This document shows positions 8,102-27,465 of a DNA stretch of 64,000 nt, one piece after another. Position 1 is the stretch's first letter, and the number at the start of each line of letters is the position of its first letter. Source of the DNA: Providencia sp. PROV188 (GTDB lineage Bacteria; Pseudomonadota; Gammaproteobacteria; Enterobacterales; Enterobacteriaceae); contig NZ_CP097291.1 of NCBI RefSeq assembly GCF_027595165.1, positions 3,286,001 through 3,350,000 of the forward strand, written 5' to 3'. The notes below the pieces were generated by a model, which was not told the origin of the DNA, did no database searches, and saw only the letters and a program-made list of their open reading frames with translations. The position numbers and the translations under genes were made by a program.

Positions 8102-8293
8102 ATATTATTTATTTTAATCACTATTAAATAAACGTTAATAAATTGAGGTTATTTTATAATTAAATAATAGATAGTAATCTTAAACTTAATTTTTTAACGT
8201 TAAAAAGTCATTTAAAGTTGAATTTATTTTAATTAAGTAAAGCCTTATACAAAGGCTTTACTTTTAGTAAGGATTTTAACAATCTAAATATAA

Positions 8294-8653: not shown

Positions 8654-8910
8654 ATAACGCCTTTTTTTGAGTAATAACACAACTGCAATACCACATTAGA
8701 GTTTTATTTTGTGGATAAATTCCCAGGCGTCATCACTATTTCATATTTACTGCTAACTCTATCCACTTAGTGCATAATTTTAACTTTTAATTAACACTTT
8801 CAATTGTTATTTATTGCAGAAAAGATGAGTGTATAAGCGGCAATTTAAATAATAAAAATACCTGCAACTCTGCATTCAACCCAACAAAGCACCCCATAAG
8901 AGAGTGATGT

Positions 8911-10203: not shown

Positions 10204-10221
10204 ATAACCGAGTAGTTAGCA

Positions 10222-10251
10222 AATAGGGGCATATCGCCCCTATTCTATTTT
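10222..10251 (+). terminator. terminator of the AAHS transporter gene
   Basis: Perfect 9-bp stem AATAGGGGC/GCCCCTATT (10222-10230 with 10236-10244) followed by CTATTTT, 18 bases after the transporter stop codon. Confidence 0.6.
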
Positions 10252-10269
10252 GAAACTAATACTTTGAAA

Positions 10270-11400
10270 TTAATACGCGAGACGATAATGCACCTTCTCG
10301 CCCGCGGTTAACTCTGGTGAGTCAGTGTAATTACTTGATAATTCGATGAATCCACGTAATTCAGGAATATATAATTTTTGATACCACTCTAACTCTGAAC
10401 GGCGGTGCAATTGATTGCTGGCAAAATCAAGGATCAAACATTTCTGTCCGCTTCTCGCTGATTCCATCACCAGCAAGCCATCACCCCAGATAACCATATC
10501 TTGCAGATGGTTATAACCCGCTTCTTTGATCAGCTTAAAATTGCCACCTTGATACTGATAAAGGGAAAACAATCGGCGGGAAGGCTCCTGAGCCGCCAAA
10601 TAAATATCCCCATTCTGATTCTGAACCGCCTCATTAATACGTATAGGCAACCATCGATGGCTCACCACGTTTTTCTGTACGATGTTCACCACCACTTCAA
10701 GAGACCCCATTTCGTTACCGTAGCTGTACCACACAATCACATTGCCATCATGAACCGCATAAGAAAATGTCGAATTATCCGCAATTTCTTCAGGATAAAA
10801 ACGCTTCACAAGCTCGCGAGGATCCATTAAATATTGCCACGTAAGCCCTTTATCCGCGCTGGTGAAGATCTTTTGGTTGTCGATCAGGACATAAGGTTCC
10901 CCCTGACCACTTTGGTACATTTTCCCGGTAATTGCCGCATAAATGTATTCACCATACCCATCTTTCCAAGGCGTTAGAGGCGTAATCGAATTACCCGCTA
11001 AGTTCACAATTCGATACCCATCGCGCACCATTAAAAGGCACTGAGACTCTTCACACACCGCGTTATAAAAACTGTCGCTAAATTGCGTGATAAAACGCAC
11101 GCCATCTTTATTGGCAAATAACACCTGATAACTATCTTCCTGTTCAGGCGAGAACAAATCTGACCGGTTGTAATAGTAGGATGAACGACCATTTTTCTGC
11201 GCAATAATCAGTGTGCCGTCTTTCGCAGGATACGTTTTGGCGTAATCATAATCCGCAATATAAGCATTGCTCTCTTGGCTGTTCTCTTTCCACTGCCATG
11301 ACGTATCATTTCCACCAAATACCAGTATCAGTGTTGATCCTAAACACACCAAGAAAACGGCACCCGTCACCAGAAAACGCCAACTTAGAAATGGATTCAT
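10270..11400 (-). CDS. membrane-anchored beta-propeller-like protein, function unknown
   Basis: 376 residues. One transmembrane anchor (residues 8-30) is followed by a soluble beta-rich region without further membrane segments. Near residue 185 lies KIFTSADKGLTWQYL, which contains an Asp-box (S-x-D-x-G-x-T-W) as in BNR/sialidase-type propellers. Catalytic residues of true sialidases are not recognisable. Its ATG shares one base with the stop of the upstream 417-residue gene (TAATG), so the pair is translationally coupled and the products probably act together at the cell envelope. I do not recognise the family. Confidence 0.65.
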   Translation of the reverse strand: MNPFLSWRFLVTGAVFLVCLGSTLILVFGGNDTSWQWKENSQESNAYIADYDYAKTYPAKDGTLIIAQKNGRSSYYYNRSDLFSPEQEDSYQVLFANKDGVRFITQFSDSFYNAVCEESQCLLMVRDGYRIVNLAGNSITPLTPWKDGYGEYIYAAITGKMYQSGQGEPYVLIDNQKIFTSADKGLTWQYLMDPRELVKRFYPEEIADNSTFSYAVHDGNVIVWYSYGNEMGSLEVVVNIVQKNVVSHRWLPIRINEAVQNQNGDIYLAAQEPSRRLFSLYQYQGGNFKLIKEAGYNHLQDMVIWGDGLLVMESARSGQKCLILDFASNQLHRRSELEWYQKLYIPELRGFIELSSNYTDSPELTAGEKVHYRLAY

Positions 11401-12653
11401 TAACGAACCTCCATGACATAAGTATCTTTACCTTGTTGGCGTCGTAATGCGCTCAGGACAGCTTGGGTTTGGTAATAGCCATTACCCCGTTTCGAAAACC
11501 GATAATACGCCGCCATACCAAGGGCAATTAAGAAACATATACCCAGGGTTATCGAGCTGGCAAAACCAATGAATATCAGGTCATTATCGAGTAAATACAG
11601 CCAATCCCAATAATCCCAGTGATTTCCCCTGTCGACAACATCGCTAATTGCTGTCGCGCCAAAAATCGCCAAGAATAGCGCCAAGATAATGCCCGTGATC
11701 CCCCACAACGCCAGATACAGGCCACGTTCTTGCGCCATACCTCGAGCAGACAGCGTATAAGCTAAATTATCTTGGTGGTTATATAGGCCAAATACGACGC
11801 TCTCGGGAAAACCATCTTCAACTTTGGAGTGATAGACTTCTACCTCATCCCCTTGAGCGAGAAAAAAGCTGTGGTTATTAAAGAAAGGTTTTGAGCCATC
11901 TAACTTGAGGTTCAAATGGCTTTTATTCACTTGAAGCTCTATTTCATTGCGGGTGTATGTTCCCCCGCGATAATAATATTCAATCGTCTTGATACTCTTA
12001 ATATTTACTTTGCCTTTTGTCACCTGTAATGAGGTTTCAGGGATAGGCTTTTGCTTTCGAGAATCTATTTTGAGCGGTTTGGGTTTCGGGTTTTTAATTC
12101 CCTCAATCTGAATCAGATTTTCGCCAGAAATTACCTGAAACTTGCCCGCTATGACTAAATCTAATGCGCGTAAGATGGTTTTTCGTTTTCGGCTAAAAAT
12201 AGTGAAGGTTTGTGAAATACACATCGACAGCAGAACGCCCCCCACAAAAGCTGCCATGCCTAATAATGACCCTAAAACAATTAACCATGTACTCTCTTCA
12301 TCATTAAACACGCAAAAAAATGCGGGGATAAAAAGTGCAGCAAGTCCAAATGATAGCAGGTATTGCTTTACTAACCCTTTGTCGAATTTAAGGTTTCTAT
12401 CGGGTTCCAAACGTCCATGTTCTGGGTGATACACCCAATTAAGCCAATAGCTCCCATCATTCAGTTGTTCAGCAGAAATAATCAACGTATCGTCTTTATT
12501 CAATCGTTCCAAAAATATTTGGCTGTTTTCAAAATCTTCAGCATTGAAAAAAAACACCTTATCCGAAGTTATTAGCCTCACCATGCCCTCAGGTGAAACC
12601 TGTTTATAATCGCACTGAATTAGCTTAACGTGAAAATATTGAACACCCATCAA
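11400..12653 (-). CDS. polytopic membrane protein, function unknown
   Basis: 417 residues. A soluble N-terminal portion (about 1-90) precedes two membrane segments (about 92-140), then a hydrophilic domain (about 150-300, with basic KPKPLKIDSRKQKP) and two further membrane segments (about 310-385). The N-terminal start MMGVQYFHVKLIQCDYK has no strong Shine-Dalgarno. It forms a two-gene operon with the following propeller-like protein. No enzyme motif is seen. The pair may be an envelope-associated accessory system; no function can be supported from sequence alone. Confidence 0.6.
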   Translation of the reverse strand: MMGVQYFHVKLIQCDYKQVSPEGMVRLITSDKVFFFNAEDFENSQIFLERLNKDDTLIISAEQLNDGSYWLNWVYHPEHGRLEPDRNLKFDKGLVKQYLLSFGLAALFIPAFFCVFNDEESTWLIVLGSLLGMAAFVGGVLLSMCISQTFTIFSRKRKTILRALDLVIAGKFQVISGENLIQIEGIKNPKPKPLKIDSRKQKPIPETSLQVTKGKVNIKSIKTIEYYYRGGTYTRNEIELQVNKSHLNLKLDGSKPFFNNHSFFLAQGDEVEVYHSKVEDGFPESVVFGLYNHQDNLAYTLSARGMAQERGLYLALWGITGIILALFLAIFGATAISDVVDRGNHWDYWDWLYLLDNDLIFIGFASSITLGICFLIALGMAAYYRFSKRGNGYYQTQAVLSALRRQQGKDTYVMEVR

Positions 12654-12934
12654 TGATGCCTATTTGTTATAGTTAATTTAACATTATGATAATAAATAAA
12701 GGTATATTGCCCTAGTTAAACTTACCCTATAATAGAACAATTCAGATAATTACAGATTCAAAGCTATATCAGTTAAAAGCTGATAAATGCCTGTTTTACT
12801 CTTAAAATGCAACCAGGCTCTAGTAAAGGAAATAATTACTGCTAGACTGGCACAGATGAGTTATTTTGAATACATTACATCCCAAGAAACCGTTATTTTA
12901 TCCCTACCGTTAACCACAAATTTGAATAAACGCG
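12654..12934. other. intergenic region upstream of hutC
   Basis: About 280 bases, AT-rich, holding the divergent promoters of hutC and of the unknown membrane-protein operon. I see no TGTATATACA-type HutC operator here, so autoregulation of hutC is not evident. A 67-codon frame at 12787-12990 runs into hutC in another frame and is unlikely to be a gene. Confidence 0.4.
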
Positions 12935-13648
12935 ATGACATCAAAACCGGCCTACAAGCAAATTCAATCTTACATTCTGCGGAGTATTGATTTAGGGATT
13001 TTCAAACCTGAAACTCAGATCCCCACTGAACTTGAGTTATGTGCCCAGTTTAATGTTAGCCGTATGACGGTAAATAAAGCGATTTCTGAACTCAGTCAAA
13101 AAGGCATCTTAAATCGGATTGCAGGAAAAGGGACTTTTGTCGCCACTCAAAAGCATGAGCTTCCCGTCACTAAAGCCTTTGATATTTTTGATGAAATTTC
13201 AGTTAGTGGGAATAAATATGCTGGTCACCAGTTACAGCTAAAAATCATCCCTGCCACCGCAGAAATTGCCCTACAACTTGGTGTCACAGAAGGCAGCGAT
13301 ATTGGCTACTGCAAAATGCTACATTTTGAAAATGACATTCCGCTGATGCTAGAAGAACGCTATGTAAATCATGGGATTGCCCCTGAATTTGTTCAGCAGC
13401 ATTTTGGCAATAGTGAAACCCCAAGCGGCTATTTACAGCGCCATTTCCCTGTTAGTGAAATGGAGCACACCATTGAAGCAATTTTAGCCAATAAGCCTAT
13501 CGCTCAGGCTTTATCCATCAAAGAACATGCTCCTTGTTTGCAGCTAAGTCGCCGCACATGGACGGGTAACACGTTGATCAGCTACGTCAATATGATCAGC
13601 GCAGGCTCACGCTATAAATTGAAATTACATTCCCGCATTGAGAATTAA
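12935..13648 (+). CDS. hutC: GntR/HutC-family transcriptional regulator
   Basis: 237 residues. Residues 1-70 are the GntR winged helix (PAYKQIQSYILRSIDLGIF, then IPTELELCAQFNVSRMTVNKAI and GKGTFVA). Residues 75-235 are a UTRA ligand domain of the HutC type (NDIPLMLEERYVNH, SRRTWTGNTLISY). HutC represses histidine-utilisation genes and is released by urocanate. Three HutC-type boxes lie in front of hutU about 10 kb away on the other strand, which fits this protein as their regulator. It converges on the ETF:QO gene. Because the surrounding operons combine hutU with acyl-CoA chemistry, its ligand could also be another imidazole acid. Confidence 0.85.
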   Translation: MTSKPAYKQIQSYILRSIDLGIFKPETQIPTELELCAQFNVSRMTVNKAISELSQKGILNRIAGKGTFVATQKHELPVTKAFDIFDEISVSGNKYAGHQLQLKIIPATAEIALQLGVTEGSDIGYCKMLHFENDIPLMLEERYVNHGIAPEFVQQHFGNSETPSGYLQRHFPVSEMEHTIEAILANKPIAQALSIKEHAPCLQLSRRTWTGNTLISYVNMISAGSRYKLKLHSRIEN

Positions 13649-13685
13649 TCTTCAGCGCTAAGCCGTCATAAAATATAACAAGCAT

Positions 13686-13709
13686 AAAAAATGGGGCACT
13701 CTGGCCCCA
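13686..13709 (-). terminator. terminator of the permease-ETF operon
   Basis: TGGGGC/GCCCCA stem (13692-13697 with 13704-13709). On the minus strand it is followed by TTTTTT, and it lies 108 bases after the ETF:QO stop codon in the convergent gap with hutC. Confidence 0.75.
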
Positions 13710-13816
13710 AAACGACTGATAAACAACTAAAATACCGTTCGATAATCTCCACATCACAGACATTACGTCAGGTATCAACACATCAACATCACAACAAACG
13801 ATATCGTCACAATAAA

Positions 13817-15499
13817 CTACATACCTTGATAAATAGGTCCTTCTCCCCCTTGAGGTGCTGTCCACGTAATATTTTGCAGAGGATCTTTAATATCACACGC
13901 TTTGCAATGCAGGCAGTTCTGTGCATTTATTTGCAGTTTCTCCTGCATCTGCTCACTCACTATTTCGTACACCCCCGCAGGGCAATATCGCGTTTCCGGT
14001 GAAGCATAAGTGGATAAATTCACGCGAATAGGAATTTCATTATCTTTTAAACGTAAGTGACAAGGCTGCTCTTCCGCATGGTTTGTATTGGATAAAAACA
14101 CCGATGAAGGTTTATCAAATGACAACTTGCCATCCGGTTTTGGGTAGTGGATCGGCTGAAATTCACTGGCAGGTTTAAGCCCTTGGTGGTCATCCAGTTT
14201 GAGCTTCAGTGTCCAAGGGCTACGCCCCTTTAATAACCATTGCTCTGCTCCGAACATCAACGACCCCATAACTAATCCTTTTTTCATATACGGCTTGAAA
14301 TTACGGGTCTGATAAAGCTCGTCATACAACCAGCTTTGTTCGAATTTTTGCTGAAATTGACGGGTAAATTCCACATAATCGACGACATCTTCGGCGAACG
14401 ATTCAAATAAAGCCTCTGCCGCTAACATGCCGCTTTTCACCGCACAGTGGCTGCCTTTAATACGTGCTGCATTCAAAAAGCCCGCATCATCCCCAATTAA
14501 TGCACCGCCAGGGAAGCTTAACTCTGGTAATGCGGGTAAGCCCCCCGCCACCATGGTACGCGCCCCATAACTCACGCGCTCCCCCCCTTGCAAAAAAGCA
14601 CTGAAGGCAGGATGGGTTTTCAAGCGCTGGAATTCATCGAATGGGGATAAATAAGGATTCTCATAATTTAGCCCTACCACCAGCCCCACCGCGACCAAGT
14701 TTTCTCCATAGTGGTAAGCAAATCCGCCCCCATAGGTTTGGTTATCCAGCGGCCAACCGATTGAATGTACCACTAGCCCCGCTTGATGTTGCTCTTTGGG
14801 AATTTGCCAAATTTCTTTGAGACCCAGTCCATAAGTCTGTTTACCGCGGTTTGCCGCTAAATCGAAGCGGGCAATTAACTGTTTACCCAGTTGCCCTCGG
14901 CATCCTTCCGCAAAGAAAGTCATTTTGGCTAACAGATTCATACCTGCTTGATACAAAGCCGTTGGGTTGCCCTGTTTGTCTAGCCCCATGTCGCCAGTGG
15001 TGACGCCAATAACCTGTCCTGCATCATCAAAAAGGATTTCGGTAGCCGCAAACCCTGGGAAAATATCGACACCGAGTTGCTCCGCTTCCGCTGCAAGTGC
15101 TGCGCTGACTTGCCCAAGGCTACCAATCACATTACCTTGGTTTTTCAGGCAAGTAGGTAACAAAGATAATGGCAACTTGCTGGTTTTATTTTCTTTGAGC
15201 CATAAAAAACGATCTTCACTGACGGAGGTGAGCGAAGCAGAAACGGTTTGCTGCCAGTCGGGTAATAACTCATTCAGTCCTCGGGGGTCGATCACTGCCC
15301 CCGATAAAATATGCGCCCCGACTTCGGCGCCTTTATCAATTAAGCAAACGCTGAGCTCCCGGTCTGTTTGTAACGAGAGTTGTTTAATGCGAATTGCCGC
15401 CGATAATCCTGCGGGCCCACCACCGACAATCAGGACATCAAACTCCATGGATTCTCGCGCACAAGACGTCGAAATATTCGCACTATTGTCGATAGTCAT
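13817..15499 (-). CDS. electron transfer flavoprotein:quinone oxidoreductase with fused ferredoxin domain
   Basis: 560 residues. The FAD-binding GGGPAGLSAA lies near residue 26; a membrane-associating quinone-binding central part follows. A C-terminal ferredoxin-like domain carries the [4Fe-4S] ligands (RYCPAGVYE ... CLHCKACDIKDP), ending in GGEGPIYQGM. This is the one-chain ETF:QO of respiratory acyl-CoA oxidation, which passes electrons from ETF to ubiquinone. It is unlike the split FixC plus FixX proteins linked to carnitine reduction. It is the last gene of the permease-ETFbeta-ETFalpha-ETF:QO operon, 11 bases after ETF alpha. Its fused form argues that the local acyl-CoA dehydrogenase works in the oxidative direction. 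Confidence 0.93.
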   Translation of the reverse strand: MTIDNSANISTSCARESMEFDVLIVGGGPAGLSAAIRIKQLSLQTDRELSVCLIDKGAEVGAHILSGAVIDPRGLNELLPDWQQTVSASLTSVSEDRFLWLKENKTSKLPLSLLPTCLKNQGNVIGSLGQVSAALAAEAEQLGVDIFPGFAATEILFDDAGQVIGVTTGDMGLDKQGNPTALYQAGMNLLAKMTFFAEGCRGQLGKQLIARFDLAANRGKQTYGLGLKEIWQIPKEQHQAGLVVHSIGWPLDNQTYGGGFAYHYGENLVAVGLVVGLNYENPYLSPFDEFQRLKTHPAFSAFLQGGERVSYGARTMVAGGLPALPELSFPGGALIGDDAGFLNAARIKGSHCAVKSGMLAAEALFESFAEDVVDYVEFTRQFQQKFEQSWLYDELYQTRNFKPYMKKGLVMGSLMFGAEQWLLKGRSPWTLKLKLDDHQGLKPASEFQPIHYPKPDGKLSFDKPSSVFLSNTNHAEEQPCHLRLKDNEIPIRVNLSTYASPETRYCPAGVYEIVSEQMQEKLQINAQNCLHCKACDIKDPLQNITWTAPQGGEGPIYQGM

Positions 15500-15510
15500 T
15501 TTGCTCTCTC

Positions 15511-16461
15511 CTACGCCAGCGCTTTATCGAATTCAGGTAAGATCTCAAACAGATCCCCCACAATGCCGTAGTCAGCCACTTGGAAAATAGGTGCTTCAGG
15601 ATCGCTGTTAATTGCGACGATCACTTTGCTCTCTTTCATGCCCGCAATATGTTGAATAGCACCCGAGATTCCAACCGCAATATACAGATCTGGCGCGACG
15701 ATCTTGCCCGTTTGTCCTACTTGATAATCATTTGGCACATACCCCGCATCCACTGCCGCACGTGAAGCCCCCACCGCAGCCCCTAGTTTGTCGGCAATGG
15801 TTTCCAGTAAAGCAAAATTCTCACCGGAACTTAAACCGCGTCCCCCCGAAATCACCACTTTGGCAGAGCTTAATTCCGCACGGCTCATCTGGGTTAATGA
15901 CTGGCTAGTCAGCTCCGAAAGTTGAGTTAACTGCGTAACAGAAACGGGTTCTATCACCACCGGTGATTGAGTCGCAGTCGTCCCTGAAAATGCCGAGCTA
16001 CGTACGGTGATCACCACTTGATTGCCATTGTTTTGCACCGTTGCCAATGCATTTCCAGCATAAATTGGGCGAACAAATGTTTGTGCATCTACCACTTGGA
16101 TAATATCCGATATCTGAGAAACACCCAGCGTGGCAGCGACGCGAGGGGCAATATTTTTACCAAATGTGGTCGCTGGGAAGATAATGTGGCTATAGCCCTG
16201 CGCCACGGCAACCACCGCGCTTGTCATTGATTCTGCCAGCACATTTTTGAGCGGTTCTGCATCGATGGTTATGACCTTTTCGACGCCGAGAATGGATGCC
16301 GCGGATTGTGCTACCGCAGCCACTTGGCTTCCCGCCACCAGCACATGCAGGCTTCCGCCCTGTGCAATGATTTCGCGTGCCGCCGTTATGCTGTTATAGG
16401 TTGAAGATTTAATGGTTTGGTTATCGTGCTCAACAACGACTAAAACGGATAATTGGCTCAT
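15511..16461 (-). CDS. electron transfer flavoprotein alpha subunit
   Basis: 316 residues. The N-terminal domain ([14 protein letters not shown]) is followed by the C-terminal FAD-binding domain with [35 protein letters not shown] and [13 protein letters not shown], all diagnostic for ETF alpha/FixB. It pairs with ETF beta, whose stop codon lies 14 bases before its ATG, to accept electrons from the acyl-CoA dehydrogenase of the neighbouring operon and hand them to the ETF:QO encoded directly downstream. Length is typical. Confidence 0.94.
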
Positions 16462-16475
16462 GTTCAGGCTCCCTG

Positions 16476-17231
16476 TTAAATCACTTCTTTAGCTTGCAGT
16501 TCAGTCACTAACGTGGCGGCATCATTCAACATGGTGCACTGCCCAGAACGCTTTTTCGGCTCAGTCACGTTGACGATTTTTACTTGCCCTAATGGGCTAA
16601 AATTCAGTGTAGAAATATCGATGATGTCTAATGGTTTTTTCTTTGCCTTCATGATGTTAGGTAATGTGGCATAGCGAGGCTCATTTAAGCGCAAGTCTGT
16701 GGTCACAATCGCAGGCAATCCCATAGATAAGGTTTCTAAGCCTCCATCGATTTCGCGAGTGACTTGCAGCTTCTCCCCCTCGACTATAATGTGCGAAGCA
16801 AAGGTGGCTTGCGCACAACCCAATAGTGCCGCAAGCATCTGCCCAGTTTGGTTGCAATCATCATCAATGGCTTGCTTGCCGAGTAAAATTAAATCCGGTT
16901 GCTCCTGACTCACCACCTGCTGTAAAAGGCGGGCAATATCCAGCGGCTCTAGTGCCATCTCGGTGGGTTTTTGAATCAAAATGGCTCGGTCAGCCCCAAT
17001 TGCCATCGTACTACGCAGCGTATCTTGCGCCGTGGCTTCACCGATGGAGACCGCCACCACTTCAGTGACTTTGCCTGCTTCTTTTAAACGTACCGCCTCT
17101 TCTACCGCAATCTCATCAAAGGGGTTCATCGCCATTTTGACATTCGTCAGCTCCACTCCCGAGCCATCGGCTTTAACCCGAACTTTAACGTTATGGTCAA
17201 TCACCCGTTTTACTGCGACTAAAATTTTCAT
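16476..17231 (-). CDS. electron transfer flavoprotein beta subunit
   Basis: 251 residues from ATG 17231 (AGGAG 5 bases upstream; [19 protein letters not shown] is the universal ETF beta opening). An in-frame ATG further upstream would add 24 residues not found in the family. Visible signatures are [16 protein letters not shown] and the AMP-binding/recognition stretch [44 protein letters not shown]. It is the second gene of the permease-ETF operon and forms the ETF heterodimer with the alpha subunit encoded next. Confidence 0.94.
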
Positions 17232-17369
17232 AACTACTCCTATCGCGTACTTTGTTACGGCTATTTTTGAGTTGAGGGAGCCCATAGCAGTGAATATTTT
17301 CACTGCTAGGACGCCATCACTGACTATTTTTATCGTTGGAAAATTAATATGTTACCTAAGAAATAAACC

Positions 17370-18809
17370 TTATTTGGTTTCTGGCAATATCAGGCTTGGC
17401 GCCACTGACATTGGCCAAATTTTTACCGCGACATAGTAGATGATACTGGTGGCAACTAAACCGACGATCCACGAAATATCCACGCCGCCCAAGCTATCAA
17501 CCAGAGGTCCGGTGTAGAAACCTGTGGCAATAAATGGCATTTGGATCAATACGCCAACCACATAGGTGATGATCCCCACTTTGTTCCAGCGACCATAACG
17601 GCCATTCGGATTGGATAATTGCGGGACATCGTAGCGACCTTTCGTCACCCAGTAGTAATCCACTAAGTTAATCGCACTCCATGGCGTAAAGAACGCTAAT
17701 AAAAACAGCAAGAAAGCCGAGAACAGTTTTAAGAATGAATGTTGCCCTGCCAGACCTAACGCCGTCGAAAAGCTCACCATAAGGATAATAAAGAACAGAC
17801 GCTGACCACGGGAAATCTGATGCTTACCACGGAAACCACACCAAATCGCTGCCATCGACATAAAGCTACCGTAAGCATTCAAAGCCGTAATCGTCACTTT
17901 GCCAAAGAAAATACTGATATACAGCAGCGCTGCAATTAAGCCCGTGCTGCCTAAACCAACAATGTAGGAAACTTCATGACCCGCAAATTGATTGCCAGCA
18001 AGCGCTGCCGCAAACACCCCTAGGATCATCGAGGCTTGAGTCCCAATCACTGTCCCTGAACCTACGGCTAAAAATGCTTTGATGGTTGGAGTTTTGGTCG
18101 GTAAATAACGGGAGTAATCCGCCACATAAGGACCAAATGCAATCTGCCAAGAAGCCGACAGCGACATAGCTAATAGGAAATTCGTCCAGCTGAAATGACG
18201 ATTCTCTAATAACACCGAAACATCATTCATATAGAACAGACGGAAGAATAGATAGAAGAAGGCGATAACGCCAACGACACTCGCCACTTTACCGAGAATA
18301 TGGATGATGCGGTAACCGCAGATAGTGATACCGATGATCACAATCCCGAAAATCACGATCCCCATCCAATCACTGACGTTCAGTAATTGCCCCACCGCCT
18401 GCCCAGCTAATACTGTCCCACTAGCAGAAAATCCGACGTACATCATACAGACCAATAAAATCGGGATGACGGCACCATAAACCCCAAATTGCACGCGGCT
18501 GGAGATCATTTGCGGCAGACCCAGCTTCGGACCTTGTACTGCATGGAGCGCCATAACCGCGCCCCCCAATAATTGACCGATAAACAAGCCAATCAACGAC
18601 CAAAATACATCCCCCCCCAACACAACCGCTAGGGCACCGGTGACGATTGCGGTGATTTGCAAGTTAGCCCCAAACCACAGCGTGAATTGGCTCGACAACG
18701 TCCCGTGTCGCTCAGATTCAGGAATATAGTCAATGGAACGTGCTTCGATAAGCGGAACATTATCTTGGCGAGACTGCTTTTGCCCGATGATATCGTTGGA
18801 AACTGTCAT
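17370..18809 (-). CDS. NCS1-family permease, candidate imidazole-acid (urocanate-type) importer
   Basis: 479 residues with about 12 transmembrane segments. Family features are the N-terminal EARSIDYIPESERHGTLSSQFTLWFGANLQ and helix 3 GPKLGLPQMISSRVQFG, the purine-cytosine/allantoin permease pattern. NCS1 proteins import nucleobases and related nitrogen heterocycles, and hut clusters of other bacteria can carry a permease of this kind for urocanate; that comparison is from memory. Here it heads the operon with the ETF genes, next to hutU and a CoA-transferase, so an imidazole carboxylate is the natural guess. A cytosine or hydroxymethylpyrimidine permease remains possible, but no matching enzyme is nearby. 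Confidence 0.8.
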   Translation of the reverse strand: MTVSNDIIGQKQSRQDNVPLIEARSIDYIPESERHGTLSSQFTLWFGANLQITAIVTGALAVVLGGDVFWSLIGLFIGQLLGGAVMALHAVQGPKLGLPQMISSRVQFGVYGAVIPILLVCMMYVGFSASGTVLAGQAVGQLLNVSDWMGIVIFGIVIIGITICGYRIIHILGKVASVVGVIAFFYLFFRLFYMNDVSVLLENRHFSWTNFLLAMSLSASWQIAFGPYVADYSRYLPTKTPTIKAFLAVGSGTVIGTQASMILGVFAAALAGNQFAGHEVSYIVGLGSTGLIAALLYISIFFGKVTITALNAYGSFMSMAAIWCGFRGKHQISRGQRLFFIILMVSFSTALGLAGQHSFLKLFSAFLLFLLAFFTPWSAINLVDYYWVTKGRYDVPQLSNPNGRYGRWNKVGIITYVVGVLIQMPFIATGFYTGPLVDSLGGVDISWIVGLVATSIIYYVAVKIWPMSVAPSLILPETK

Positions 18810-18991
18810 GGTAATTCCTCTTTAAGCAAGGCTGGCTTAAAGAATGGACCAATTAGTCGTCAGCAATGAATTCTCTATGTTGTGAGCACAGACATTTGAC
18901 GTGATGCAGGTATGTTATTGTTTTATCTACCCGTCATTAATAATTGAAATACATTCTTAAACCTGATTGTTGTTGTGTTTTTAAGTCCATG

Positions 18992-19007
18992 ATCCTGTTG
19001 TCAGGAT
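18992..19007. promoter_or_regulatory. inverted repeat in the permease promoter region
   Basis: ATCCTG-N4-CAGGAT, a perfect 6-4-6 palindrome about 185 bases upstream of the permease ATG, in the 282-base gap to the dehydrogenase gene. It could be an operator; the binder is unknown. No clear TGTATATACA box was seen in this gap. Confidence 0.35.
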
Positions 19008-19042
19008 AGTGCTCCTGTTATTGCTTAGATACTCATAGCTGG

Positions 19043-19076
19043 AAAAACCCCGATAAGTCCTGTCTTACCTATCGGG
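19043..19076 (-). terminator. terminator of the hutU operon
   Basis: 7-bp stem CCCGATA/TATCGGG (19049-19055 with 19070-19076). On the minus strand it is followed by GTTTTT. It lies 16 bases after the acyl-CoA dehydrogenase stop, so the hutU operon ends here and the permease-ETF genes need their own promoter. Confidence 0.8.
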
Positions 19077-19091
19077 TCGAACTCATCAAAA

Positions 19092-20228
19092 TTAAGCGTC
19101 GAGAACGGCGCGCGAAATAATGATTTTTTGAATTTCTGACGTCCCTTCAAAGATACGCAAAATACGAGCATCTCGTACATAGCGCTCTAGGGGTAGATCG
19201 CGAATATAACCATACCCCCCATGCAGTTGCAGCGCGGCATCCGTCACAAAACCTGCGCATTCCGCCGCAAATAGTTTTGCGGTGGCAGATTGCAAACTAA
19301 AGCGCTGCCCAGAATCTCGCAGCTCCGCCGCGTTCCATGTCAGCATTCGTGCCGCTTCCAGCTGTGTATGCATATCGGCGATTTTCCATTGAGTCCCTTG
19401 ATAGGCCGCCAGCGGCTTCTTACCAATTTGACGCTCTTTCACCCAGCCTAATGTGCTTTCCATGGCTGCACGAGCGATCCCCAATGACGTTGCCGCCACT
19501 TCCACACGACCTTTATCCAGCACTTCCATCGCCGTATGGAACCCTTTGCCCTCTTCTCCCAGCAATGCCGATTCAGGTAACCAGCAGTTGAGTGCTAATT
19601 CATAGATAGTGCTACCACGCAGCCCCATGGTTTTTTCTGGGTGAGAAAATGCCACGCCTTCTGTTCCTTTCGGGATCATAAACGCGCTAATGCCACGAGC
19701 ACCTGCTTCAACATCTGTTTTGGCGTACAGCACAATAAAATCCGCTTCTTTGGCATTGGTAATATAGTGTTTGTTACCGCGAATGCGCCAACCGCCATTT
19801 TCACGGGTTGCTGTCGTGCGCATATCCGCGGGGTTTGAACCTGCGGCGGGCTCTGTTAATCCAAACGCACCCAGTAATTCACCGCTTGCGGCTTTTGGTA
19901 ACCAATAATTTTTTTGCTCTTCTGTTCCGCCAATCAGGATAGAATCAGTCGCTAAGAAATGGGCGGTCAATGCGGATGATGTCGAGGCGCAGGCAGCCGC
20001 CACTGCTTCAACAATCATGCTCATGGCAATACTGCCAATGCCAAAACCACCGTATTGCTCCGGTAAGTTGATTCCCCAGCAGCCCATTTCACCCAGTGCG
20101 GTTAAGCTTTCCGCACAGAAAATTTCTTCTTCGTCATAACGTTGAGCGTTCGCTTGCAGAATATCGCGACACACTTTTTCAACGGCCTCTACAATGGCGT
20201 ATTCGGTTTCATTAATATCAAAACTCAT
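19092..20228 (-). CDS. acyl-CoA dehydrogenase
   Basis: 378 residues with the complete acyl-CoA dehydrogenase fold. Visible are the N-terminal helical domain, the FAD/substrate beta domain with FGLTEPAAGSNPADMRTTA and WRIRGNKHYITNA, and the C-terminal helices with QLHGGYGYIRDLPLERYVRDARI and the catalytic glutamate in RIFEGTSEIQ. It introduces a 2,3 double bond in an acyl-CoA and gives the electrons to ETF. Its ATG overlaps the CoA-transferase stop by 4 bases (ATGA), so the two are coupled; hutU is the first gene of the same operon. Substrate is not readable from sequence, but context points to a CoA ester leading to a urocanate-like acid. Confidence 0.93.
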   Translation of the reverse strand: MSFDINETEYAIVEAVEKVCRDILQANAQRYDEEEIFCAESLTALGEMGCWGINLPEQYGGFGIGSIAMSMIVEAVAAACASTSSALTAHFLATDSILIGGTEEQKNYWLPKAASGELLGAFGLTEPAAGSNPADMRTTATRENGGWRIRGNKHYITNAKEADFIVLYAKTDVEAGARGISAFMIPKGTEGVAFSHPEKTMGLRGSTIYELALNCWLPESALLGEEGKGFHTAMEVLDKGRVEVAATSLGIARAAMESTLGWVKERQIGKKPLAAYQGTQWKIADMHTQLEAARMLTWNAAELRDSGQRFSLQSATAKLFAAECAGFVTDAALQLHGGYGYIRDLPLERYVRDARILRIFEGTSEIQKIIISRAVLDA

Positions 20229-21421
20229 TGCATCGTCTCCGCGCTTTTTATTGTTGTGGTTATGGTAGTAGCTGCCGATTTATAGCGTTCATTGCCTTCC
20301 CCAAGAGCAGGGGCTCTTTGGGTGACTTTCGGTTTCACACCATTAAAGAAAACCGGCTGAGAAATCAGAGGGGTACCGCCATCATTTAAGTGGGTTAATA
20401 CCTGACGAACTTCGGCATGCTCGCTTTGCGTTGCTTGCTGTAAATTGTGAATCGGTGAGGCTGGAACCCCGGCATTCAGCAATAAGTCACACACTTCCTC
20501 GACACGCTTTGTTCCTGTCCAGCTTTCAATTTCTTGACGTAGCGCCGCTTGATTGATCGTACGAACTGGATCGCTCAAGTAACGCGCATCTTGGGATAAC
20601 TCCGGTTTCCCCATACATTCACAGAAACGTTGGAACAGTTTTTCACTGGCAATCGCAATCACCACCAAACCATCTTTTGCTTGGTAAGTATCAAATGGCG
20701 TTGAAACAGGATGGCGATTACCCACTAAACTTGGCGCCTTGCCATTGGCAAATAAATTAGATAGTCCAGTAAGCTGCATACTGAGCAGCACATCCACCAT
20801 GGCAACATCCAAATATTGCGCACCTTCACCATGACGTTCGCGAGCAAACAGTGCGCTGCTAATCGCCCATGAGGCAAATACGCCCGCACAGACATCCCCG
20901 ATGGATTCACCGCTGCGCGTAGGACCCGACTCAGGGGAACCTGTCACGCTCATCAACCCAGACATAGCCTGTGCCACAATGTCATAAGCTGGGTAGCTCG
21001 CAAGGGGGCTGTTTTGCCCAAATCCTGAAATGCTGGCGTAGATAATGTTGGGATTAAGCTGTTTAACGCTGTCGAAATCGATCCCAAGACGCTTGGTGAC
21101 GCCGGGGCGGAAGTTTTCCACCACCACATCACTCTCTTTGATCAATTGAAATAAAATCTGACGATCGCCATCGTCTTTAAGATCTAACTCAATGCTGCGT
21201 TTTCCGCGATTGATCAGCCCGTAATAAACACTTTCACCGTCAATAAAAGGACCAAGATGACGGCTATCATCACCATGATCAGGCACTTCGATTTTGATCA
21301 CTTCTGCGCCCAAGTCTGCCATCATGCCCGTGCAGTAAGGCCCTGCGAGCACACGGCTTAAATCAATCACTTTGATCCCAGCTAGCGGTCCGTGTGGTTT
21401 TTGAGTCATTGCCGCATTCAT
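20225..21421 (-). CDS. CaiB/BaiF class III CoA-transferase
   Basis: 398 residues from ATG 21421 (AAGGAA upstream); a longer frame to 21472 would add 17 residues of no family character. Visible motifs are GIKVIDLSRVLAGPYCTGMMADLGAEVIKIE, the KRSIELDLK segment, VVENFRPGV, and YPAYDIVAQAMSG with the catalytic aspartate that forms the aspartyl-CoA anhydride. Class III enzymes move CoA between two carboxylic acids. Placed between urocanase (57 bases upstream) and an acyl-CoA dehydrogenase (4-base overlap), it would activate the substrate acid using the CoA of the oxidised product, as CaiB does in carnitine metabolism. Confidence 0.92.
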   Translation of the reverse strand: MNAAMTQKPHGPLAGIKVIDLSRVLAGPYCTGMMADLGAEVIKIEVPDHGDDSRHLGPFIDGESVYYGLINRGKRSIELDLKDDGDRQILFQLIKESDVVVENFRPGVTKRLGIDFDSVKQLNPNIIYASISGFGQNSPLASYPAYDIVAQAMSGLMSVTGSPESGPTRSGESIGDVCAGVFASWAISSALFARERHGEGAQYLDVAMVDVLLSMQLTGLSNLFANGKAPSLVGNRHPVSTPFDTYQAKDGLVVIAIASEKLFQRFCECMGKPELSQDARYLSDPVRTINQAALRQEIESWTGTKRVEEVCDLLLNAGVPASPIHNLQQATQSEHAEVRQVLTHLNDGGTPLISQPVFFNGVKPKVTQRAPALGEGNERYKSAATTITTTIKSAETMQ

Positions 21422-21478
21422 CGTGAATTCCTTATGTGAGGCTAAAAGGTGCCGACTCCATAGAGCCGGCATTCGACA

Positions 21479-23146
21479 TTACTTGACCATTGGCAAGTTA
21501 AGACCTTGCTGCTTCGCACAGTTAATGGCGATGTCATAACCGGCATCCGCATGGCGCATGACGCCAGTTGCAGGGTCGTTGTGCAGCACACGAGCAAGAC
21601 GTTTGTCTGCGGCATCGGTACCATCACACACAATCACCACGCCAGCGTGTTGCGAGAAGCCCATTCCAACGCCGCCGCCGTGATGCAAGCTCACCCACGT
21701 CGCCCCGCCTGCGGTGTTCAACAGCGCATTAAGTAATGGCCAGTCAGAGACGGCATCAGAACCATCTTTCATGGATTCTGTTTCACGATGCGGGCTGGCA
21801 ACTGAGCCAGAATCAAGATGGTCACGCCCAATCACGATAGGGCCTTTTAGCTCCCCATTTTTCACCATCTCGTTAAACGCGCGCCCCAATCTTTCCCTGT
21901 CTTTCAGTCCCACCCAGCAAATACGCGCCGGTAAACCTTGGAATACAATACGCTCGCGCGCCATATCCAGCCAGTTATGAAGGTGTTTATCATCAGGGAT
22001 CAGCTCTTTGACTTTTTGGTCGGTTTTGTAGATATCTTCTGGGTCACCCGACAGTGCCACCCAACGGAATGGACCAATCCCTTCGCAGAACAGCGGACGA
22101 ATATACGCAGGCACAAATCCTGGGAAATCAAAGGCATTATTCACGCCTTCATCTTTGGCCATCTGGCGAATATTGTTGCCGTAGTCAAACGCTGCCGAGC
22201 CACGTTTTTGCATTTGCAGCATGGCATCCACCTGCACTGCCATGCTTTTCTTCGCGGCTTTCGTCACTTCAGCTGGCGCAGTTTGTTGCTTGTCACGCCA
22301 CTGGGCTAATGTCCAACCTTGTGGCAAATAACCGTGTACAGGGTCATGGGCGCTAGTTTGGTCGGTGACTGAATCCGGCGTGATATTGCGTTTGACTAAC
22401 TCGCTATATACATCCGCCGCATTGCCTAATAAACCCACGGAGACTGGCTTACCGCTCGCTTTGGCTTCTTCGATATAGCCCAACGCTTCATCTAGCGAAG
22501 TCGCTTTTTTGTCTACGTAACGGGTTCTTAAACGGAAATCGATACGGCTTTCATCGCACTCAACCGCAATCATGCTAAAGCCAGCCATGGTGGCCGCTAA
22601 AGGCTGTGCGCCCCCCATACCGCCTAATCCGCCAGTTAGGATCCAACGCCCTGCTGGGTTGCCGTTAAAATGCTGTTTTGCCAGTGAAACGAAGGTTTCA
22701 TAGGTACCTTGTACAATCCCTTGTGAACCGATGTAGATCCATGAGCCGGCAGTCATCTGCCCGTACATCATCAAGCCTTTGCGATCTAATTCGTTGAAAT
22801 GATCCCAATTCGCCCAATGAGGAACAATGTTTGAGTTAGCAATTAAAACGCGTGGCGCGTCTACATGAGTTGGGAACACTCCGACTGGTTTACCGGATTG
22901 CACCAGCAATGTTTGATCGTCTTCGAGGGTTTTTAAGACATCTAAAATCTTGTCGTAACATTCCCAGTCACGGGCTGCACGTCCAATGCCACCATACACC
23001 ACCAAGCTTTGCGGATGCTCAGCAACATCTGGATCTAAGTTATTTTGGATCATGCGGTAGACGGCTTCAGTCAGCCAGCTTTTGCAGCTCTTTTGGCTAC
23101 CGTGCGGGGCACGGATCACGCGCGTTGAATCTGTACGGTTTAACAT
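21479..23146 (-). CDS. hutU: urocanate hydratase (urocanase)
   Basis: 555 residues, the normal length. Seen are the N-terminal [21 protein letters not shown], the NAD-binding [51 protein letters not shown] (conserved cysteine) and [17 protein letters not shown]. All core motifs are intact. It converts urocanate to imidazolonepropionate in the cytoplasm, using tightly bound NAD+ as electrophile. It is the first gene of a three-gene operon with the CoA-transferase and dehydrogenase, and not next to hutH, which is absent from this window. HutC-type boxes lie 200-330 bases upstream. Confidence 0.97.
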
Positions 23147-23233
23147 TCTTTTATCCCCTATCCATCCACTTGGTTTAACGTAAAATTAACAATTTCGGTT
23201 ATTTATCATTGTTGAGTTAGTGGCTAACAGATC

Positions 23234-23252
23234 ATTCCCACACCGTGGGAAT
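23234..23252 (-). other. palindrome in the hutU leader
   Basis: Perfect 8-3-8 inverted repeat (ATTCCCAC ACC GTGGGAAT) about 90 bases before the hutU ATG and without a T-run. It could be a leader-RNA hairpin or a second operator. Confidence 0.5.
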
Positions 23253-23345
23253 CTTTGAATTTAACATTTAAATCAACTCATTAAATAAAAAAAAAGAACG
23301 ATTAAAAATGATCTTTTTGCCCTGTTTGCTTAGTTGATAATTAAA

Positions 23346-23377
23346 TATATATACATTTAATTCACAAAGTATATACA
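23346..23377 (-). promoter_or_regulatory. two HutC-type operators upstream of hutU
   Basis: TATATATACA (23346-23355) and AGTATATACA (23368-23377) each differ from the HutC-type palindrome TGTATATACA by one or two bases. They are 22 bases (about two turns) apart, so they would sit on the same helix face. They lie 200-230 bases before the hutU ATG. Confidence 0.6.
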
Positions 23378-23468
23378 TTGAAATTTGAATTTTTGTCGCA
23401 ACAGTGGAGAAGGGATGTGGAGAAAAGTTAGACAACAATAACTAGGATGCTGTTTCTACACAAAAACT

Positions 23469-23478
23469 TGTATATACA
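23469..23478 (-). promoter_or_regulatory. perfect HutC-type operator upstream of hutU
   Basis: TGTATATACA, the full palindrome. It is the third box of the 531-base gap 23147-23677, about 100 bases from the first pair. The stretch in between is AT-rich and contains no gene; the hutU promoter should lie here, but I could not pick hexamers with confidence. Confidence 0.6.
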
Positions 23479-23601
23479 TTTTATTTTCTATGCAGAAACA
23501 AGCAAATAACAAAAATGGGAGAAGCCTCACATTAAGCTGATAGCCGTTACAGGCGATACACGCGTTTCATACTTAACCTTCCGCATTAATCGCCACCAAA
23601 T

Positions 23602-23677: not shown

Positions 23678-24379
23678 CTATCCGCCTAAATAAGCGCTGC
23701 GTACCGCTTCATTCGCCAGTAAGGCTTTTCCGGTATCTTCCAAAACAATATGCCCATTTTCTAGCACATACCCACGGTCAGCGAGTTTCAGTGCTTGGTT
23801 GGCATTTTGCTCCACCAAAAAGATGGTCATCCCCTCTTCCCGTAGCTGCAAAATGGTGTCAAATATTTGCATAATGATAATTGGCGCCAGCCCCAATGAA
23901 GGTTCATCCAATAACAGTAATTCAGGCTGACTCATCAGCGCCCGCCCAATGGCAAGCATCTGCTGCTCTCCACCGGACATGGTTCCTGAGCGCTGGCTAC
24001 GACGTTCATGCAACCGTGGAAATAACGAATAAACCCGTTCAATACGCTCGAGATATTGGTGGCGATCCGCAAAAAAACCACCCATCGCTAGATTTTCCTC
24101 AACGGTCATACGAGAAAATACCCGCCGACCTTCCGGCACTAGCGCAATGTCTTTGCGCATAATTTGTGGTGTCGGTAACTGAGTAATATCCGCTCCGCGA
24201 TAAAGCACCTGACCTGAGGAGGCGCGAGGGTCGCCACATAACGTACTGAGTAACGTGGTTTTTCCTGCACCATTGGCACCAATCAGCGTGACAATCTCAC
24301 CTTTTTGAATATTTAAGCTGACATCATGCAGCGCCTGTATTTTCCCATAATGGGTGGAAACTTGTTTAAATTCCAACAT
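23678..24379 (-). CDS. livF: branched-chain amino acid ABC transporter, ATPase LivF
   Basis: 233 residues. Walker A GANGAGKTTLL, signature MSGGEQQMLAIGRAL and Walker B LLLLDEPSLGLAP are all intact; the C-terminal VLENGHIVLEDTGKALL is typical of LivF. It is one of two ATPases powering uptake of leucine, isoleucine and valine through LivHM. It is the last gene of livKHMGF and its ATG shares one base with the livG stop (TGATG). Confidence 0.96.
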   Translation of the reverse strand: MLEFKQVSTHYGKIQALHDVSLNIQKGEIVTLIGANGAGKTTLLSTLCGDPRASSGQVLYRGADITQLPTPQIMRKDIALVPEGRRVFSRMTVEENLAMGGFFADRHQYLERIERVYSLFPRLHERRSQRSGTMSGGEQQMLAIGRALMSQPELLLLDEPSLGLAPIIIMQIFDTILQLREEGMTIFLVEQNANQALKLADRGYVLENGHIVLEDTGKALLANEAVRSAYLGG

Positions 24380-25170
24380 CAGTAAGCTTCTCCCAAGTAG
24401 GCTTTGATCACATCAGGATGCTGGCGAATTTCGTTTGGTGTTCCATTCGCCAGAGGTGTTCCTTGGTTCACCACATAAATTCGATCAGAAATGCCCATCA
24501 CCAATTTCATATCATGCTCTATCAATAAGATAGAGACATTATGATGGGTTCTCAGCTCCGCAATTAGCTCATCCAGATCGTTAGTTTCCTTCGGGTTTAA
24601 CCCTGCCGCTGGCTCATCCAACATCAAAATTTCAGGTCGCGTCACCATGCAACGGGCAATTTCTAGGCGACGCTGTTGACCATACGCCAGATTCCCCGCT
24701 TGGCGGTTAGCAAACTCAGAAAGATTGACCCGCTCTAGCCATTTCACCGCATTATCCACCGCTTCGGCTTCTGCTCGGCGAAATGCTGGCGTTTTCAGTA
24801 AGCCTGAGAAAATACCGCTTTTCAGATGTTGGTGCTGAGCCACTAATAAGTTTTCAATCACCGTCATCTCTTTGAATAAGCGAACATGCTGGAATGTACG
24901 GATCACCCCAAGGCGAGCAATAGCTTGACCCGGAAGCCCTTCAAGATGCTTATCTCGATAGAGGATCGCCCCGCTCGTTGGCTTATAAAATCCAGTTAAA
25001 CAGTTAAATATGGTGGTTTTTCCTGCACCATTGGGACCAATCAGTGAAACAATTTCCCCTTGGTTTAACGTCAACTCCACGTTGTTGACCGCAAGCAAAC
25101 CACCAAAGCGCATGGTTAAGCCACTGACTTGCAATAACGGTACAGCCGAAGGCTGAATAGGCGTCGTCAT
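24379..25170 (-). CDS. livG: branched-chain amino acid ABC transporter, ATPase LivG
   Basis: 263 residues. Walker [18 protein letters not shown], LivG-type [23 protein letters not shown], signature [16 protein letters not shown] and Walker [17 protein letters not shown]. It partners LivF on the cytoplasmic face of the permease. ATGA overlap with livM indicates coupled translation. Confidence 0.96.
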
Positions 25171-26435
25171 GATCCGCCTCCCTGCACATTTTTCAGCTTC
25201 ATTTGACGGCGCTGCATCGGCAATAAGCCTTGTGGGCGCCAGATCATCATCAGCACCATCAATGCCCCCAGCAGCAACATGCTGTATTCATTCAGATCGC
25301 GCATCATCTCCCTTGATACTACCAAGATGATCGCGGCTAGAATCACCGACATTTGCGATCCCATCCCACCCAGCACCACGATCGCCAGTACAAAGGCTGA
25401 TTCAGCAAAAGTGAAGGATTCAGGGCTGATAAACCCTTGTCGTGCAGCAAATAATGCTCCGGCAAACCCTGCAAATGTTGCACTGATCGTAAAGGCGGTT
25501 AATTTAATGCGCGTCGGGCTTAAGCCTAATGATCGACACGCAATTTCATCTTCACGTAGCGCTTCCCACGCACGTCCTAATGGCATCCGTAACAAGCGGC
25601 TGATCACGATCAAGGTGATCACCACCAGCAACAGCGCCACAAAATAGAGGAAAATGATCCGGTCACCAGGGTTGTAATCTAACCCAAAGAAGTTATGGAA
25701 TGTGTCCCAACCATCTTTAGCAGTACGGCTAAATTCTAAGCCAAAGAAAGTTGGTTTTGGCAGTTGGCTGATCCCGTTAGGGCCACCGGTGATCTCCGTA
25801 TTATTTAATAATAAAATACGTACGATCTCCCCAAACCCAAGGGTGACGATCGCCAAATAGTCACCCCGTAACCTCAGCACAGGGAAACCTAATAAGAACC
25901 CAGCTAATGCTGCCGTTAAGCCGGCAATCGGTAAGCTTTCCCAGAAACCAAAATCATAATAGTGATTGAGTAAGCCAAAGGTGTAAGCGCCGATAGCGTA
26001 GAAGCCCGCATAGCCGAGTACCAATAATCCTGACAATCCAACTACGACGTTTAAGCCTAGCCCCAACATCACGTAGATCAGGGTTAATGTGGCAATATCG
26101 ACGCTGCCGCGAGACACCAAAAATGGCCAGATGATCGCCCCAATAATGATAGCGATCCCAATAATTTTTTGTCTAAGCGAGCCACCGTCAAAATCCGGTA
26201 ACGCCCACGATTTTTTGGGTACGCCTTGCCACACTTTGCTTAATGCAGGGCGAATTAATTGATACACAAAGATAATGGCGATGCCGACAAAGATCCAATT
26301 CCAACGAACGTCTCCCCCTGATTCCACTATCAGCTTAGTCCCATCGAGTCCTAATTTTAGCCCCATCATAAATACGGCTAAAATAAAGAAGGTGACGGAG
26401 GCAATAATGGCACTGATCCAATTTTCTTTTCTCAT
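25167..26435 (-). CDS. livM: branched-chain amino acid ABC transporter, permease LivM
   Basis: 422 residues, very hydrophobic, with the LivM signatures [30 protein letters not shown] and [29 protein letters not shown] (the ATPase coupling loop). The long N-terminus with extra membrane segments is typical of the enterobacterial protein. ATG overlaps the livH stop by 4 bases. It forms the inner-membrane channel with LivH. Confidence 0.96.
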
Positions 26436-27358
26436 ACTTTTTCGACCTCCGGGCGACCCAGAATGCCAGTTGGCATGATCAACAGAACACCAATCAATAA
26501 ACCAAATGAGACGACATCTTTATATTCCGTACTTAAATACGCCGAGGTCATGGCTTCCGCTACACCAAGGATCAAGCCGCCCAGCATCGCGCCAGGAATA
26601 CTGCCGATTCCACCTAATACGGCTGCGGTGAAAGCTTTCATTCCCGCCATAAAGCCAATATACGGGTTAATTACGCCGTAGAATTGCCCTAGTAATACAC
26701 CTGCAACCGCCGCCATCGTTGCGCCGATCACGAATGTCAAAGAGATCACGCGGTCAGTGTTGATACCCAGCAGACTTGCCATTTTTAAATCTTCCGCACA
26801 CGCACGGCAAGCGCGTCCCATACGGGAATAGCGGATAAACAGCGTTAATGCCAGCATCGCAAGGAAGGTCACAATCCAGATAGTCAGCTGCATTTTGGTG
26901 ACAATGGCAGAGAAGCCATCACTTTCACCTAATACCCACTGCCCAGTAATCAGGCTTGGCAACGCTAGATCGCGGGATCCTTGAGATAAACTGACGTAGT
27001 TTTGTAAGAAGATGGACATCCCGATAGCTGAGATCAGCGCAATTAGGCGCTTAGAGTGACGAACGGGACGGTAAGCAACCCGCTCGATACTCCAACCATA
27101 GGAGCTTGATACCACAATTGCCGCCACAAATGCCGCTGCAATGAGGATCCACCCCACATCGATACCGAGCATCATTAAGCCCGCAATGACAATGAACGAA
27201 ACGTAGCTACCAATCATGTACACTTCACCGTGGGCGAAGTTGATCATCCCGATGATGCCGTACACCATGGTATAGCCGATAGCGATCAGCGCGTAAGTGC
27301 TTCCTAACGTTAGGCCATTGAGGAATTGCTGAATAAAATACAGAATTTGGTCTGACAT
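26432..27358 (-). CDS. livH: branched-chain amino acid ABC transporter, permease LivH
   Basis: 308 residues, same length as E. coli LivH. It begins with [36 protein letters not shown], the diagnostic LivH opening. About eight membrane segments, with coupling loop [24 protein letters not shown]. Second gene of the operon, 107 bases after livK. Confidence 0.96.
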
Positions 27359-27465
27359 AAGATTATCCTTTCAAACTACTGTCCCTCTATGGAGAGCAGA
27401 AGCTGGAAGCCCGTTACCAAGCTCCCAGCTCATCACTGAATATCATTTCTCAATACAGATGAGAG

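Follow-up and report, generated by a model that had tools for sequence, protein, structure and literature searches.

A candidate oxidative route from imidazole propionate to urocanate encoded beside a second urocanase gene in Providencia

Introduction

Why does a bacterium whose histidine degradation has its own gene set carry a further urocanase next to a carnitine-type transferase and an acyl-CoA dehydrogenase (ACAD)? The question is raised by a cluster of eight genes in a 64-kb stretch of the Providencia sp. PROV188 genome (contig coordinates 3286001-3350000, hereafter the window), the genome being 4.02 Mb in two contigs. An initial annotation, made from the sequence alone, had proposed that this cluster oxidises imidazole propionate (dihydrourocanate) as a coenzyme A (CoA) thioester and delivers urocanate to its own urocanase. 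Our analysis leads us to consider it likely that the cluster encodes such an oxidation, joining histidine degradation as a side branch, in respect of both the reaction pair and its direction. We are less sure of the CoA donor and of the cargo of the permease.

Imidazole propionate is made by microbes, has been associated with cardiometabolic disease and linked to diabetes, and is usually treated as a dead end; the portions of the literature consulted describe only its formation by UrdA. In the accessible part of a 2026 preprint on histidine competition, histidine is converted to imidazole propionate via HutH and UrdA, and the available text of a 2024 mini review describes the reduction of urocanate by UrdA as unidirectional. 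Bacterial degradation of the compound has nevertheless been reported, in a paper by Coote and Hassall (1973) whose title, as cited by later papers, concerns imidazolylpropionate degradation by Pseudomonas testosteroni.

Results

Profile searches of families and domains placed all eight genes where the initial annotation had put them and in the families it had named. On the minus strand these are, in order, hutU, a CaiB-type transferase gene and an ACAD gene, followed after a 282-base gap by genes for an NCS1-family permease, both subunits of an electron transfer flavoprotein (etfB, etfA) and a fused ETF:quinone oxidoreductase (ETF:QO), on which a plus-strand hutC converges. The permease (17370..18809; PF02133, 168.2 bits) is a candidate importer of imidazole propionate or urocanate.

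The urocanase, HutU2 (21479..23146, minus strand), scores 978.6 bits with TIGR01228 (cut-off 375) and possesses the Urocanase_N, Rossmann and C domains. Its closest solved structure is urocanase 1uwl (975.6 bits), with which Cys410, in the motif ARICWVGL, aligns identically; we take this to be the position of the catalytic cysteine. A search elsewhere in the genome for hutH, hutI and hutG recovered all three. hutH, hutU1, hutC1 and hutI lie together 0.9 Mb from the cluster, while hutG is found at a separate place (TIGR01227, 301.5 bits; cut-off 229). The genome therefore holds the complete route leading from urocanate to glutamate, and the hutU and hutC of the cluster are second copies; the two urocanases are 75% identical.

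The CoA-transferase (20225..21418, minus strand) belongs to class III, as judged from a PF02515 score of 399.9 bits and from Asp175, which is invariant in an alignment of 21 sequences and is presumably the nucleophile, by comparison with formyl-CoA transferase. Its closest named relatives are from Providencia (98% identity to a P. alcalifaciens protein) and its closest solved structure is YfdE (4hl6, 315.5 bits). The ACAD gene (19092..20228, minus strand) overlaps that of the transferase by 4 bases, and its product carries the N-terminal, middle and C-terminal Acyl-CoA_dh domains together with the C-terminal glutamate of the family. This residue, Glu361, which we assume to be the catalytic base, is kept in all 48 sequences with that column filled (49 aligned), and the closest solved structure is the dehydrogenase of 5ol2. 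Both proteins fall far below the cut-offs of the carnitine models (CoA-transferase, 123.5 against 413; crotonobetainyl-CoA dehydrogenase, 178.9 against 540). From these features the transferase is a candidate for CoA transfer to imidazole propionate and the ACAD for an imidazolepropionyl-CoA dehydrogenase.

The first operon is headed by HutC-like boxes, as the initial annotation had noted. A motif scan locates three of them 5' of hutU2, one an exact TGTATATACA (23469..23478) and two with a single mismatch each (23368..23377 and 23346..23355); the whole window has four matches of this quality (no more than one mismatch), these three included. Each has a counterpart before hutU in all four other Providencia loci scanned (L008-L011). 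Genome-wide, the exact word occurs at five places in 4.02 Mb, against one for a backwards control, and three of the five lie 5' of hutU1, hutI and hutU2. The other two (L089:4015 and L088:3894) have no hut gene near; one stands 42 bases before an open reading frame that by eye is methyltransferase-like, and the other within an open reading frame. Searches allowing two mismatches give chance-level results in the window (28 matches against 31.65 expected), and a further two-mismatch list is likewise mostly chance-level; neither is used as evidence here.

The convergent regulator, HutC2 (12935..13648, plus strand), carries GntR and UTRA domains and is 35% identical to the other HutC of the genome. 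It exceeds the cut-off of TIGR02018 (242.7 against 220 bits) and falls under that of a second HutC model, NF011575 (175.7 against 424), and with cognate boxes standing before hutU2 we assign it to the HutC family. For the HutC of P. aeruginosa, the part of the source available to us reports that urocanate frees the repressor from DNA (PMC12977541); urocanate would similarly relieve HutC at the boxes before hutU2.

Next we asked how widely the link to hut genes is conserved. Among 369 genomes sampled across the class, a close CaiB homologue (E up to 1e-120) was present only in that of the window, and since such a random draw is too thin, the best 80 of at least 596 relatives from a CaiB-alignment scan of genome contigs were used instead; all locus, clade and tree counts rest on these. 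With the window they give 81 CaiB rows, whose neighbours were placed by tblastn with the window and hut-locus proteins, a row being called hut-linked when hutU, hutH, hutI or hutG scored above 100 bits in the fetched stretch. A quick tree built from the 81 places all 33 hut-linked rows in one branch of 54; none of the 27 rows outside it is hut-linked (17 uncut and 10 cut stretches; Fisher p 2e-8, the rows not being independent). The hut label requires 11 changes on the tree against a shuffled mean of 25.8, a value as low occurring in 0 of 500 shuffles, although near-copies help this figure.

Besides the window, the clade comprises 53 loci, with an ACAD above 200 bits in 46, hutU in 31 and, within the fetched stretch, an NCS1 permease homologue (above 70 bits) in 17. 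Where hutU is present it is on the strand of CaiB in 28 of 31 loci, and hutH is also in the stretch in 11 of the 31. Hut-linked copies occur, among other hosts, in Providencia, Citrobacter, Pseudomonas, Acinetobacter and Halomonas, and further in Brevibacterium, Paracoccus, Gemmobacter, Chelatococcus and Bacillaceae, so that the association of hutU, CaiB and ACAD first seen in one genome is conserved from Proteobacteria to Actinobacteria and Bacillaceae. Boxes recur as well: exact HutC boxes precede NCS1, CaiB, hutU and hutC in Acinetobacter tianfuensis (L017), CaiB in a Pseudomonas (L015) and hutI in a Halomonas (L018), while none was found in L013, L014 and L016, whose contigs start just upstream.

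These results bear on the possibility that the adjacency is due to chance or merely to a shared regulator, CaiB and ACAD serving an unrelated acyl-CoA pathway. Such an account can draw on the 21 of the 54 clade rows in whose fetched stretch no hut gene was called (17 uncut, 4 cut). However, for 19 of these 21 the genome does contain a hutU above its cut-off (4/4 and 15/17 in two probes), whereas outside the clade this holds for 13 of 27 genomes (p 0.002). Of the two misses, one genome (L016) shows hutU only as fragments where contigs end, including one at the edge of the L016 locus itself, and the other (L045) is a metagenome bin of 2.6 Mb. A genome-wide figure of 35/37 was set aside, because 16 of those genomes had been picked for being linked. 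Considering also the confinement of the link to one clade across several phyla, and the exact boxes before CaiB itself in the Pseudomonas and A. tianfuensis loci, we regard chance adjacency as highly improbable.

Two genomes of the clade are particularly informative. A. tianfuensis has NCS1, CaiB, ACAD, hutU, hutI, hutG, a glutamate dehydrogenase gene, hutD and hutC in one stretch. The set of Halomonas sp. KAO consists of hutC, a transporter-like gene (Gate domain), hutI, hutG, hutU, CaiB, ACAD, etfB and etfA. Each has a single hutU, whose coordinates are those of the cluster copy. hutH was not found (E up to 0.001) in either draft genome, whereas it was over the cut-off in all 18 other genomes probed. 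Judging by gene content, CaiB-ACAD is the predicted replacement for histidase as urocanate source in these two genomes.

The direction of the reaction is indicated by the electron carriers. EtfA (15511..16461, minus strand) scores 326 bits with mitochondrial ETF and 294.5 with 1efp, the remaining structures giving at most 174. EtfB (16476..17231, minus strand) scores 280.3 with 1efp and 265.2 with 1efv, followed by 1o94 (107.6) and then the bifurcating ETFs at no more than 96.5 (CarD 96.5, 4kpu 81.2, 5ol2 78.2). The ETF:QO (13817..15499, minus strand; PF05187 and PF21162) is of the fused mitochondrial type, its best structure match being ETF-QO 2gmh (622.8 bits, against 75.4 for FixC), and it reaches 53.3 bits with the FixC model (cut-off 610). 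Scores of 326, 280 and 623 bits, against at most 174, 97 and 75 for bifurcating ETFs and FixC, thus define a respiratory, canonical set. Only one other EtfA match exists in the genome, and it belongs to a fix locus (FixC, 837.7 bits, cut-off 610; FixB-type, 517.2, just under its cut-off of 549), so the cluster ETF is the one respiratory-type ETF of the genome and it is placed with the ACAD. A respiratory-type ETF and ETF:QO, distinct from the Fix proteins that the genome also encodes, should deliver electrons to quinone, and on this ground we rejected a Fix-type reductive system for the cluster. The fix locus (L090, contig 898000-907000) also contains a permease that resembles CaiT by eye.

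The opposite direction must still be weighed: urocanate would be activated with CoA, urocanoyl-CoA reduced and imidazole propionate excreted as an electron sink, in the manner of CaiB/CaiA or of the acryloyl-CoA reductases. In its favour, ACAD, EtfA and EtfB all find their best NCBIfam match in Clostridium acryloyl-CoA reductase models, every one below its cut-off, and some loci of the clade have a zinc-type dehydrogenase instead of the ACAD. The acryloyl-CoA and caffeyl-CoA reductase-Etf complexes do share related ACAD and ETF families and 2,3-enoyl-CoA chemistry with the cluster, but they are bifurcating and reductive, whereas the window ETF scores far higher with respiratory ETFs and is accompanied by a mitochondrial-type ETF:QO rather than FixC. 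Furthermore, the genome has its separate fix locus, the hutU of the same operon would consume the urocanate, and where hutH was not found, as in the two genomes above, urocanate would need an outside source. Acinetobacter and Brevibacterium, which carry the cluster, are aerobic genera. Reductive operation therefore appears unlikely to us, and we retain oxidation of imidazole propionate as the preferred reading.

The zinc-type dehydrogenase belongs to a group of five variant loci (L035, L037, L047, L052 and L053) that have CaiB and HutU and no ACAD. The gene upstream of CaiB was classified in L053 and L052, where it encodes a zinc-type dehydrogenase closest to the PIG3 quinone-oxidoreductase family, with weaker matches to acryloyl-CoA reductase, all matches lying below cut-off. 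The order in all five is IclR-type regulator, zinc-type dehydrogenase, CaiB, HutU, in consecutive genes (about 8,000-12,900 in each), the regulator having been tested in L035 and the dehydrogenase in L053 and L052, with the others alike by eye; hutH is nearby in L037 and L053. Possibly these loci hold an NAD(P)-linked version of the route, or a different pathway. In two loci from Bacillaceae, L027 and L028, etfBA is followed by a gene for an Fe-S oxidoreductase-like protein, and it is plausible that this protein serves as the menaquinone partner. Each of these two clusters contains two different hutU genes (L028:12365-15749; L027:4878-6518 and 12809-14473).

Such duplicate urocanases suggest another alternative, in which CaiB and ACAD act on a related imidazole acid, for instance an N-methylated or ring-thiolated analogue, and HutU2 on the matching urocanate. 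Several of these genomes have a second hutU, there is a family of thiourocanate hydratases, and some clade loci combine a diverged hutU with an additional MmgE/PrpD-type gene. In the latter loci, L032 and L034 (about 6,900-11,100), the MmgE/PrpD-type gene, confirmed as such in L034, and then CaiB come after hutU, and the ACAD is on the other strand; each genome has two hutU, one of them lower scoring, and these loci may serve another imidazole acid. HutU2, however, is a strong hutU match that at 700.4 bits stays under the thiourocanate hydratase cut-off (NF058530, 930), which rules out that identity; the second hutU of L027 and of L028 is likewise below the thiourocanate and S-methyl-thiourocanate models, and we rejected both compounds as substrates. 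Finally, the only hutU found in the A. tianfuensis genome is a member of the cluster, as are hutI and hutG, which points to plain urocanate. An analogue substrate is consequently improbable for the window, and imidazole propionate remains the substrate that we favour.

In the ACAD, Asp95 is present in all 28 hut-linked sequences (window included), in 18 of 21 unlinked ones and hence in 46 of 49 overall; it is lacking in L030, L080 and L081, of which L030 has a CaiB that falls inside the hut-linked branch. Residue 243 is Glu in 37, Asp in 5 and another residue in 7 of the 49, and among the hut-linked sequences Glu in 23, Asp in 1 and Gly in 4. Three solved ACAD structures in the alignment have Trp, Gly and Gly at the place of Asp95 and Gly in all three at that of Glu243. 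Our guess would be that Asp95 and Glu243 are candidate pocket residues for the imidazole ring.

Within Providencia, CaiB was found in 23 of 24 genomes searched (own included), one of the 23 being partial with internal stop codons, and in the remaining genome (G403) none was found. The partial copy (G407:C2:554922-555503) has two TGA codons inside, and another Providencia genome has a second CaiB-like gene, 45% identical (G406:C1:3257953-3259062). An E. coli collection gave no near CaiB match by megablast, the only search made of it, and each of 56 plasmid matches was below 60% identity. Close to the Citrobacter copy is a gene whose product has a PapD-type pilus chaperone domain (L012:4969-5691), and by eye the surroundings look like a pilus operon. 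In the window, genes that by eye encode a branched-chain amino acid type ABC transporter (23678-28638) adjoin the cluster, a neighbourhood kept in four other Providencia loci.

Discussion

We propose the following sequence of events, in which we infer the substrate, the direction, the CoA donor, transport and the induction of HutC2 by urocanate. Imidazole propionate would be imported by the NCS1 permease and given CoA by the class III transferase, in the steady state probably from the product, urocanoyl-CoA, as none of the eight genes resembles a CoA ligase or a thioesterase. The ACAD would then form the 2,3 double bond of urocanoyl-CoA, passing its electrons to the dedicated EtfAB, on to ETF:QO and into quinone. 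The transferase would free urocanate, HutU2 would hydrate it, and HutI and HutG, encoded elsewhere, would complete the route to glutamate.

This scheme displays individual features of several known systems. With the Hut pathway (hutHUIG and HutC) the cluster shares a urocanase, a HutC-type repressor, the TGTATATACA boxes, urocanate as node and a downstream need for hutI and hutG, but in place of a histidase reaction it would begin with a saturated acid that is activated with CoA and dehydrogenated, and its hutU and hutC are second copies. A class III transferase that swaps CoA between substrate and product, an ACAD and an ETF are also found in carnitine reduction by CaiTABCDE and FixABCX. The cluster does not belong to that system, however, having a respiratory ETF and a fused ETF:QO, an expected oxidative direction and a separate fix locus in the same genome. 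UrdA, as far as the sources available to us describe it, interconverts the same pair of urocanate and imidazole propionate. Whereas UrdA reduces free urocanate, the cluster would act on CoA thioesters and oxidise. The reaction of UrdA is CoA-independent.

The degradation reported in 1973, in so far as its cited title tells, concerns the same substrate broken down by bacteria. The ability is therefore already known, and it is the gene cluster as its likely basis that appears to be new, as far as our literature search reaches: among the matches listed, none pointed to genes for imidazole propionate oxidation, subscription journals being mostly outside its coverage.

Beside the unlinked clade loci, the acryloyl-CoA reductase matches and the L032 and L034 loci discussed above, several observations weigh against our interpretation. 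The support for the hut-linked branch in the quick tree is an SH-aLRT of 92, below the 95 mark. Glu243 is replaced by Gly in four Bacillaceae ACADs. The five variant loci dispense with an ACAD altogether, and the direction of their zinc-type dehydrogenase could be reductive, since for an NAD(P)-linked enzyme of such a kind reduction is favoured by general redox reasoning. Urocanate uptake could be an alternative feed in A. tianfuensis and Halomonas sp. KAO, both of whose genomes are drafts of untold completeness. In the window, no box with two or fewer mismatches precedes the second operon (NCS1-etfBA-ETF:QO), and a terminator-like hairpin (19049..19076, minus strand; 10 pairs then GTTTTT, a consensus match only, with 11 such sites in the stretch against 11.9 expected) separates the ACAD gene from NCS1, so that co-regulation of the second operon is not shown here. 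Comamonas, which we take to be the genus of the 1973 degrader, is absent from the named matches among the best 120 of a search with a Paraburkholderia homologue.

Weighing these points, we think it fairly probable that a dedicated, CoA-dependent pathway from imidazole propionate through urocanate to glutamate exists in nearly all sampled Providencia and is scattered over Proteobacteria, Actinobacteria and Bacillaceae. It would occur in quinone-linked forms, with ETF:QO or the Fe-S oxidoreductase of Bacillaceae, and possibly in an NAD(P)-linked form, and some bacteria would have lost histidase and kept hutUIG only for imidazole propionate. The level of the compound in the gut would then be a balance between UrdA makers and these consumers.

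Should the pathway operate in this way, it would provide the genes for the degradation reported in 1973 and a further case of a carnitine-type transferase/dehydrogenase module running oxidatively. Hut-linked CaiB and ACAD would be a genetic marker for finding consumers in metagenomes, and gut-capable bacteria that carry them could lower imidazole propionate.

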